A stretch of 35,639 bases of DNA, from NCBI GenBank assembly GCA_040754375.1, contig JBFMCT010000035.1, positions 1 to 35,639 of the forward strand, read 5' to 3'. Positions 13,903-15,631 of this stretch are shown piece by piece; within the stretch, counting starts at the first letter, position 1; every line of letters starts with the position of its first letter. Under the pieces are notes generated by a model. The model searched no databases, was not told the origin of the DNA, and saw only the letters and a list, made by a program, of their open reading frames with translations. This DNA is from Actinomycetota bacterium (lineage in GTDB: Bacteria > Actinomycetota > Acidimicrobiia > Acidimicrobiales > AC-14). A program made the translations under genes and the position numbers.

Positions 13903-14307
13903 TCAGGCGGGTGTCACCTGGGCGGTACAGAACGAACAGCGGCGAGCGCCCCGGGGGATGGAGCTGAGGCACTCGGGGCAGTCCCGGGTGGTCGACTCGA
14001 CCTCGGGCTCGGTCTTGCGTCTGGCCATGAGCCGGTTGATGGGCTTGACCACGAAGAAGAAGACGGCTGCGGCGATCGTGAGGAACGACAGCAGGGCGTT
14101 GACGAACAGTCCGTAGCGGATCTCGCTGCCGCCGACGGTGATGGCCAGGTCTTCGAAGTTGGCCGAACCGGGTATGGCGATGATCGGCGTGATTATGTTC
14201 TCGACCAACGAGGTGACCACTGCCCCGAAGGCCGCCCCGATGACGACCGCCACGGCCAGGTCGACCATGTTGCCCCTGAGGATGAAGGCTCTGAACTCCT
14301 TGACCAC
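13903..14307 (-). CDS. mscL: Large-conductance mechanosensitive channel MscL with C-terminal zinc ribbon
   Basis: The first 95 residues are canonical MscL: an amphipathic N-terminus (VKEFRAFILRGNMVDLAVAV), pore helix TM1 with IGAAFGAVVTSLVENIITP, a periplasmic loop and TM2 (FVNALLSFLTIAAAVFFFVV), followed by KPINRLM. MscL opens under high membrane tension to release solutes on osmotic downshock. Instead of the usual charged cytoplasmic bundle, the tail ends in CPEC...CSFC, a four-Cys zinc-ribbon arrangement (about residues 110-128). The GTG start has GGGAGG 6 bp upstream. It is divergent from the alternative-oxidase-like gene. Confidence 0.93.
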   Translation of the reverse strand: MVKEFRAFILRGNMVDLAVAVVIGAAFGAVVTSLVENIITPIIAIPGSANFEDLAITVGGSEIRYGLFVNALLSFLTIAAAVFFFVVKPINRLMARRKTEPEVESTTRDCPECLSSIPRGARRCSFCTAQVTPA

Positions 14308-14334: not shown

Positions 14335-14363
14335 ATGACAGAGTCGCGCCGACGCGCTACCTT
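14335..14363 (+). promoter_or_regulatory. Predicted promoter of the alternative-oxidase-like gene
   Basis: ATGACA (14335-14340) as -35 and TACCTT (14358-14363) as -10 are separated by exactly 17 bp. Transcription would start near 14370, which is the first base of the GTG start codon, implying a leaderless mRNA. No Shine-Dalgarno sequence precedes that GTG, in agreement. Confidence 0.55.
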
Positions 14364-14367
14364 GGTC

Positions 14368-14385
14368 TTGTGAAAACTTTCACAA
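14368..14385. promoter_or_regulatory. Rex-type redox operator
   Basis: TTGTGAAAACTTTCACAA is a perfect inverted repeat (it extends to 9+2+9 bp at 14367-14386). It fits the operator of the NADH/NAD+-sensing repressor Rex, which has the form TTGTGAA-N4-TTCACAA. In Streptomyces, Rex controls cytochrome bd and NADH dehydrogenase genes through such sites. Here it overlaps the predicted transcription start and the GTG start codon, an ideal position for repression. No rex gene is in the window. Confidence 0.75.
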
Positions 14386-15077
14386 GCTCTCCGGAACCGG
14401 CGACCGCTCTCCCCGAGGGGCCGCCGAAGCTCAGTCCCACCCAGCTCCGCATCGAGCAGGCGCGCACGCTGGCGTCGCCCCGCCGTCGTTACGGCGTGGC
14501 CGCCCGAGGTCTGTTCCTGCTCCTCGACCTCATCTACGGCCGGGCCCGCACGCTCTCGAAGTTCAAGGTCCTCGAGGTCGTGGCCCGGGTGCCCTACCAG
14601 GCCTGGGAGCACGTGGCCTACGTGGCCGTGACCCACCGTTACTCGCGGCCGTCGTTCGCCCGCCGCATCTTCGAGCGCGTACACGAGAGCCGCGAGCAGC
14701 AGGACAACGAGCAGTGGCACCTGCTGATCCTCGAGGAGCTCGTCGACCGTTCGGGCCGGCGGGAGAGCTTCCTGCGCTACCGGGTGTTCCCCCAGCTGCT
14801 GGCCTTCGCTTACTACCAGCTCTCCTGGGCGCTCTACGCCATCAAGCCCCGGTGGAGCTACGGGCTCAACGCCGACTTCGAGGACCACGCCGAGCACGAG
14901 TACGCCCTGTTCGTGCAGGAGAACCCCGAGTTCGAAGACGAGCCCTACGACGGGTTGTTCGCCGAGGAGTACGGCCACTACGAGTCGGTGGCCGACCTGT
15001 TCCGCCAGATCGGTCACGACGAACGGGTCCACAAGAACGAGAGCCTGGCCCGGATGGACGAGCCCCGCTTCAGCTGA
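14370..15077 (+). CDS. Alternative-oxidase-like diiron protein
   Basis: A 235-aa protein whose four helices carry all six expected diiron ligands in alternative oxidase (AOX/PTOX) order: Glu80 (AWEHVAYV), Glu114-x2-His117 (NEQWHLLILEEL, cf. NERMHL), a Glu in the FEDHAEHEY segment (171-177) and Glu218-x2-His221 (HDERVHKN, cf. ADExxH). AOX is an interfacial membrane quinol oxidase that reduces oxygen to water without pumping protons. The length is near that of bacterial AOX. The first 40 residues are variable. GTG 14370 lies within a Rex-like operator and at the predicted transcription start. Low respiratory NAD+ (high NADH) would relieve Rex repression. A non-oxidase role for the diiron fold is possible. 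Confidence 0.78.
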   Translation: MKTFTSSPEPATALPEGPPKLSPTQLRIEQARTLASPRRRYGVAARGLFLLLDLIYGRARTLSKFKVLEVVARVPYQAWEHVAYVAVTHRYSRPSFARRIFERVHESREQQDNEQWHLLILEELVDRSGRRESFLRYRVFPQLLAFAYYQLSWALYAIKPRWSYGLNADFEDHAEHEYALFVQENPEFEDEPYDGLFAEEYGHYESVADLFRQIGHDERVHKNESLARMDEPRFS

Positions 15078-15154: not shown

Positions 15155-15631
15155 TCAGCCCTTGGTGGCCCGAGCCGCCTTGGCCGGGGCTTTGGCCGCC
15201 TTGGCCGCCGGGGCCTTGCGGGCCGCAGGTGCCGCCTTGGCCGGGGCCTTGGCCGCCTTGGCCGGCGCCTTGGCCGCCTTGGCCGGGGCCTTGGCCGCTT
15301 TGGGCGCAGCGGGGGCCGGGGGCCATACGCCCTTGGCCAGCTTGGGGGCGGCCGAGATCGACATCACGCCGTCCTTGTAGCCCTTCAGCGGGGTGATCTT
15401 GGCCCGCTTGGACGCCTTGATCTTCACGGGCTCACCTGTGGCCGGGTTACGGCCGACACGAGCAGGCCGGTCGACCCGGGCGAACTTGGCGAAGCCCGAG
15501 ATCGCCACGGGCTCCCCCTTGGCGTTGACGGCCATGATGACCTCGGTCATGCCCTTGAGGGCCTGATCGACCATCTTCGGTTCCAGGCCGGTGTGGGCCG
15601 CGGTCGCGTTCACCAGCTCTCGTCGGTTCAT
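15155..15631 (-). CDS. hup: HU-family nucleoid protein with histone-H1-like Lys/Ala/Pro tail
   Basis: Residues 1-90 are an HU domain: MNRRELVNATAAHTGLEPKM, GEPVAISGFAKFARVDRPAR and GRNPATGEPVKIKASKRAKI, the DNA-bending arm. The C-terminal 60 residues are repeats of PAKAAKA, as in actinobacterial HupB/HupS. The arm inserts into the minor groove, and the basic tail compacts DNA. Such proteins organise the nucleoid and often respond to stress. ATG 15631 has AGGAG 7 bp upstream. It is divergent from the Tad operon and separated from the oxidase gene by a strong hairpin. After SISAAP a short PKLAKGVWPPAPAAP linker precedes the repeats. Confidence 0.95.
   Translation of the reverse strand: MNRRELVNATAAHTGLEPKMVDQALKGMTEVIMAVNAKGEPVAISGFAKFARVDRPARVGRNPATGEPVKIKASKRAKITPLKGYKDGVMSISAAPKLAKGVWPPAPAAPKAAKAPAKAAKAPAKAAKAPAKAAPAARKAPAAKAAKAPAKAARATKG
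15180..15299 (-). repeat. 21-bp coding tandem repeats in the hup tail
   Basis: Three adjacent 21-bp units at 15237-15257, 15258-15278 and 15279-15299 differ at only one or two bases and encode the seven-residue unit KAAKAPA; a further near-copy is at 15180-15200. Such repeats can change copy number by slippage and so alter tail length. Confidence 0.85.

Follow-up and report, generated by a model that had tools for sequence, protein, structure and literature searches.

A Rex-type operator at the predicted leaderless start of an alternative oxidase gene in an Actinomycetota bacterium

The alternative oxidase (AOX) of Vibrio fischeri is reportedly controlled by NsrR. It is, like the gene described here, a bacterial AOX with a dedicated regulator, but the signal there is nitric oxide and here is predicted to be the NADH/NAD+ ratio.

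The redox regulator Rex has been studied in Streptomyces avermitilis (PMC5355995; all statements on this species refer to the accessible part of that paper). Binding and regulation by Rex were demonstrated there for wblE, nuoA1-N1, rex-hem, cydA1 and atpI, and the M. tuberculosis homologue of wblE is whiB1 (PMC5355995). The region protected by Rex at cydA1 extends from −3 to +25, and the sites in Table 1 of the paper lie 29–288 nt from the start codon. The underlying scan covered upstream intergenic DNA, so that operators overlapping a start codon would go unlisted. Leaderless genes of actinobacteria carry TANNNT signals about 12 bp upstream of the start codon (Zheng et al. 2011, PMC3160421), and respiration genes are almost devoid of leaderless mRNAs in the M. 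tuberculosis map (PMC3898074), as far as the accessible parts of the two papers go.

The AOX gene lies in a contig stretch of 35,639 nucleotides, which is called the window. Its operator shares the consensus TTGTGAANNNNTTCACAA with the Streptomyces Rex regulon and reaches from about −2 to +16, a position similar to that protected by Rex at cydA1 of S. avermitilis (PMC5355995). Rex operators near or downstream of the transcription start are also found in S. avermitilis, whereas the operator described here contains the start codon itself. The quinol oxidase gene among the targets is that of cytochrome bd in S. avermitilis and that of AOX in the present case. We consider it likely that a Rex operator coincides with the site where both transcription and translation of a leaderless AOX gene begin, with Rex repressing the gene and a high NADH/NAD+ ratio releasing it. 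In the open-licence literature, searched by title and abstract, no description of a Rex-controlled AOX or of a leaderless start fused to a repressor operator was found.

Operator, oxidase and start site

The Rex-type operator TTGTGAAAACTTTCACAA (14368..14385, palindromic and without assigned strand) matches the Rex consensus with 0 mismatches and is kept in AOX orthologues. The inverted repeat read directly comprises 20 bp (14367–14386) with arms of 9 bp. It is the sole match in the window at ≤3 mismatches, compared to a mean of 0.12 in 100 shuffles, which bears out the perfect palindrome over GTG 14370 claimed in an earlier note on this DNA. The genome scan suggested in the same note was applied to the organism's own genome (G000; 3.51 Mb, 97.5% complete) and yielded four sites at ≤2 mismatches versus none for the reversed pattern. 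Two of the four are perfect, namely the AOX operator and a site at C5:102961.

The open reading frame 14370..15077 (+ strand) encodes a predicted diiron protein of 235 aa. It was recognised by the Pfam AOX model (PF01786) with an E value of 1.6e-8 and 34.9 bits, the gathering cut-off being 22.7. The AlphaFold model has a pLDDT of 94 and a pTM of 0.89, with the first 20 residues least confident. Its top fold match is the AOX of T. brucei (Foldseek E 1.5e-4; Z 20.9, 2.7 Å over 204 residues), and the next different protein reached a Z of 12.5. An NCBIfam search assigned no family, and a sequence search against the PDB gave chance-like matches only (best E 0.16 and 0.0081, a ribosomal protein). 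E69, E114, H117, E171/E177, E218 and H221 are invariant in 48/48 alignment rows; we take them to be candidate diiron ligands according to their motif (E, ExxH, E, ExxH). By Pfam score and fold the product is an AOX, as had been claimed from its sequence, and it would act as a quinol oxidase. A second, diverged AOX of the same genome (L027; G000:C13:35069-35698) is 58–61% identical and lacks the operator. Downstream of the AOX gene and convergent to it, 15155-15631 (− strand) encodes an HU-like DNA-binding protein with a long tail rich in lysine and alanine.

The start codon GTG (14370..14372, + strand) lies inside the operator, and the transcription start predicted from the −10 spacing falls on the same base. 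Upstream of this GTG no in-frame ATG, GTG or TTG occurs before a stop codon is reached, and the next start is codon 43, leaving GTG 14370 as the sole in-frame start before that codon. A −10 box of the TANNNT type, TACCTT (14358..14363, + strand), is placed six bases before GTG, a spacing typical of leaderless genes, and such a box is seen at four of five AOX operators. A −35-like hexamer, ATGACA (14335..14340, + strand), precedes the −10 box by 17 bp. Both elements of this previously claimed promoter are present and the −10 box recurs in the orthologues, but the −35 element is not conserved by eye among the five genes. A sigma-70 consensus scan did not report the ATGACA/TACCTT pair, which by hand count scores 8/12 against a threshold of 9. 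No Shine-Dalgarno-like stretch is visible by eye before GTG 14370, which agrees with the absence of a ribosome-binding site stated earlier. The divergent mscL gene (13903..14307, − strand) has its own Shine-Dalgarno-like stretch, GGGAGG, before its GTG. This neighbour is not found beside every AOX copy: among the five loci an adjoining MscL-like ORF was identified (by sequence) at G000 and G008 only, and the AOX copies L048, L049 and L051 have other neighbouring ORFs.

Across the five AOX operators, TANNNT ends 6–7 nt before GTG in four. The fifth, that of G004, has two mismatches in the operator and lacks TANNNT. For comparison, 46 of the 50 Rex-type sites of the family were read in both orientations, giving 92 oriented sites (G005:C505, G007:C17, C404 and C406 were left out). 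TANNNT at 5–8 nt was found at 0/88 of the other oriented sites, a number that includes the G004 AOX site. In the own-genome DNA examined, window included, TANNNT at 6–7 bases precedes 1 of 3266 GTGs, presumably GTG 14370 itself. The AOX gene carries TANNNT about 12 bp before its start, as leaderless actinobacterial genes do (PMC3160421, PMC3898074). An operator that supplies the start codon distinguishes the gene described here; the accessible parts of both papers describe none for leaderless genes, and PMC3898074 does not use the word operator. As respiration genes are almost devoid of leaderless mRNAs in M. tuberculosis, a leaderless AOX would be an exception.

That Rex operators in general provide leaderless starts is unsupported, since TANNNT occurs at the four AOX sites only among the 92 oriented family sites. 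At 28 further loci of the class with perfect sites (L177-L204), 4/58 operator-GTG frames reach 100 aa; TANNNT accompanies 6/58 of the frames, all of them in AT-rich genomes and with a length of ≤24 aa. The operator GTG is also in frame with the gene at G009 rex, G005 nuoA and G001 whiB, but without the −10 pattern. In G009 (L144:1501-1518) the frame enters rex as V-N-R-C-T..., a possible second overlap of operator and start.

rex and the predicted regulon

A rex homologue, for which the earlier note had suggested a search and whose absence it had named as a refutation, is present on contig C41 of G000 (L001:1267-2136) with a Rex-type site upstream. The protein combines the PF06971 DNA-binding part with a Rossmann part, and it matches Rex proteins of the PDB with E values down to 5.7e-49. 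A gene for siroheme synthesis follows rex, an arrangement resembling the rex-hem operons of Streptomyces. Of the four sites of G000, one lies at the AOX gene; the others are upstream of rex, of a nuoF-like gene and, at a distance of 40 bp from the start, of a WhiB gene.

Ten genomes of the family contain 50 sites at ≤2 mismatches versus four matches to the reversed pattern. Among the 46 sites read, several precede nuoA (L149, tested with Pfam; L167 and L153, assigned by sequence) or COX1 (L165, tested with Pfam; L150 and L170, assigned by sequence), and one in L136 precedes an NDH-2 gene. Six of eight rex loci of the family have an upstream site at ≤3 mismatches, versus 0/8 for the reversed pattern. 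Some family sites precede genes without a link to NADH, and some sites with two mismatches look like chance. wblE/WhiB, nuoA, NDH-2 and rex itself are target kinds common to the family and to the Streptomyces Rex regulon, as far as the latter is covered by the accessible text (PMC5355995). From their sequence and context, the sites of G000 and the family constitute a Rex regulon, to which Rex is predicted to bind.

Further sites were noticed beside recurrent genes. A site with two mismatches precedes a gene of about 393–420 aa in three genomes of one genus (L163:1487-1504, L159:1517-1534, L156:1467-1484); the product is a HAD-family hydrolase according to Pfam at L163, with L159 and L156 alike by sequence, and the gene is a candidate Rex target. 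In five family genomes (L004:1501-1518, L157, L158, L162, L173) a site with two mismatches stands before a NuoF-like gene, which adjoins a small gene for a CBS-domain-like protein. A pair of Rex-type sites 98–101 bp apart adjoins a WhiB gene in three congeneric genomes (L137, L138, L139). Small AT-rich genomes of the class (L177-L192) have perfect sites before genes that resemble whiB and nuoA by sequence.

Rex and the AOX operator do not always occur together: G007 has rex and an AOX gene without operator, and in G008, which has a perfect AOX operator and is 85% complete, rex was found neither by HMM nor by protein search. Nor was the siroheme gene adjoining rex in G000 and G004 detected in G008. 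Given the completeness of 85% and the missing siroheme match, the rex region of G008 was probably not assembled, and the absence of rex probably reflects an assembly gap.

Subunit I of cytochrome bd (PF01654) was found in 0/10 family genomes, three of which are less than 90% complete; the same search was positive in 10/14 control genomes. As cytochrome bd was not found in the ten genomes, a Rex-controlled AOX may take its place in this family.

Conservation of the operator and rival explanations

Seven AOX-like genes are distributed over five of the ten family genomes. Five of the seven carry the operator: it is perfect in G000 and G008, has two mismatches in G004, and is present in G002 once perfectly and once with one mismatch (the records of G002, G004 and G008 are metagenome-assembled). 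No operator at ≤3 mismatches was found at the AOX gene of G007 or at the second AOX gene of G000 (L027). In all five operator-bearing genes, from four genomes, the GTG of the operator is in frame and encodes M-(K/N/S)-x-(F/I)-T. Absence of the palindrome from orthologous loci had been named in advance as evidence against the proposal; it is present, with GTG in frame, at the five closest AOX genes. Invariant bases across these loci amount to 11/14 in the arms, 0/4 in the centre, 0/57 upstream and 5/57 downstream in a comparison that was ungapped from GTG and may underrate conservation of the flanks. The ORFs next to the AOX gene vary among most of the five loci. The five genes form one clade (support 97/87), corresponding to one change on the tree of 48 rows.

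We rejected the idea that AOX genes in general carry the operator. Among 91 scanned loci, sites at ≤2 mismatches were found only at L048-L051, which are the same genes as family loci already known to carry the operator; a site with three mismatches at L060 is probably due to chance. The scan comprised 80 named loci (of 184 relatives), 10 class loci and one paralogue, several of the named and class loci being the same place; L036 and L038 (same places as L113 and L114) and the fragments L044 and L045 were left out, and little upstream DNA was available at some loci, e.g. L057, L119 and L060. The AOX operator is restricted to one clade; its absence from distant AOX loci says little about Rex itself there. 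Perfect Rex-type sites occurred in 0/66 genomes of the same order among the matches listed (198 class genomes were drawn), so that, among the matches listed, the family seems unusual within its order.

The invariant bases could in principle serve the peptide. The operator-coded first residues M-K-T-F-T (14370..14385, + strand) make the operator a part of the N-terminus, as had been proposed, and F4 is kept in 4/5 and T5 in 5/5 AOX proteins. However, selection on MKTFT instead of on DNA binding would not account for one invariant base and one 4/5 base before GTG. Codon 3 is free and codon 5 is ACA in 5/5 genes, a codon used for only 10/134 Thr residues in eight ORFs of the window (AOX included). 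Furthermore, the N-terminus is modelled with the lowest confidence and differs in the AOX proteins of L025 and L027. We regard a peptide origin of this conservation as extremely improbable. Because of the ACA usage, the constraint on the two bases before GTG and the low-confidence N-terminus, the conservation at the AOX start likely reflects the DNA operator. That the operator belongs to a regulator of the Crp/Fnr family, so that AOX would respond to cAMP or oxygen, is very unlikely. Mycobacterial whiB1 is Crp-controlled, the palindrome fits TGTGA-N6-TCACA exactly, and this pattern at ≤1 mismatch occurs at 17 places in the genome versus seven for the reversed control. Nevertheless, both perfect TGTGA-N6-TCACA sites are also perfect Rex sites, and within the 18-mer, positions 7 and 12 are each retained at 4/5 AOX sites, with 0/4 centre bases invariant. 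A search of G000 with the Crp-type HTH model PF13545, the sole model used for this family, gave no protein above the cut-off and was positive in 14/14 control genomes; its two weak matches are a DtxR-family protein and, by sequence, an ArsR-like protein. The lack of a PF13545 protein above the cut-off and the location of sites before rex and NADH dehydrogenase genes led us to hold the Crp/Fnr reading unlikely.

The operator may be genuine while the mRNA has a leader, transcription starting further upstream and Rex acting as a roadblock. S. avermitilis cydA1 and wblE have documented Rex operators downstream of the transcription start, according to the accessible part of that study. The lack of −35 conservation points in the same direction, as does one AOX orthologue with a Shine-Dalgarno-like stretch, the second copy of G002, where AAGGTGG before GTG could act as such. 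Against this, TANNNT at 6–7 nt marks four of the five AOX genes and just 1/3266 background GTGs, the other four AOX genes show no Shine-Dalgarno-like stretch by eye, and the gap between the GTG of AOX and mscL measures just 62 bp. A leader with Rex as roadblock appears to us rather unlikely, though less so than a Crp/Fnr site, and we favour Rex control of a leaderless AOX gene.

Proposed mode of control

At low NADH, a Rex dimer occupying about −2 to +16 would block RNA polymerase at the start site. A rise of NADH/NAD+, as when the chain is over-reduced, oxygen is scarce or the main oxidase is blocked, would release Rex, and a leaderless mRNA beginning with GUGAA... would be made. The AOX would then oxidise the quinol pool with oxygen as electron acceptor and pump no protons. 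AOX is supported as a new predicted member of the known Rex regulon, with an unusual fusion of operator and start. The earlier note had put forward just this; it holds as a prediction, but the operator is limited to one clade. The predicted targets of Rex, an NADH sensor, would thereby include a non-pumping AOX, and we suggest that it acts as a redox safety valve replacing cytochrome bd in this family, whose ten genomes yielded no cytochrome bd. Operator, predicted transcription start and start codon are fused in one conserved element, and such elements can escape regulon scans that cover only sequences preceding annotated genes.

Since GTG is part of the Rex consensus, a leaderless promoter that comes to lie over this sequence could acquire start codon and hairpin together. 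In the clade, the palindrome could have three jobs, as Rex operator, as leaderless transcription and translation start, and as a hairpin at the 5′ end of the mRNA (predicted GUGAA/UUCAC, 14370..14385) that masks the start codon and holds basal translation down. We advance this extension very tentatively and hold it to be doubtful. The hairpin is weak evidence because every palindrome forms one. It appears in the predicted minimum-energy structure of 4/5 orthologues. Stretches of 40 nt fold clearly better than shuffles in 2/5 cases (z about −1.7 and −2.1), with values of 0.6, −0.7 and 1.4 for the others. For the first 18 nt of the AOX mRNA described here, −4.2 kcal/mol is predicted.
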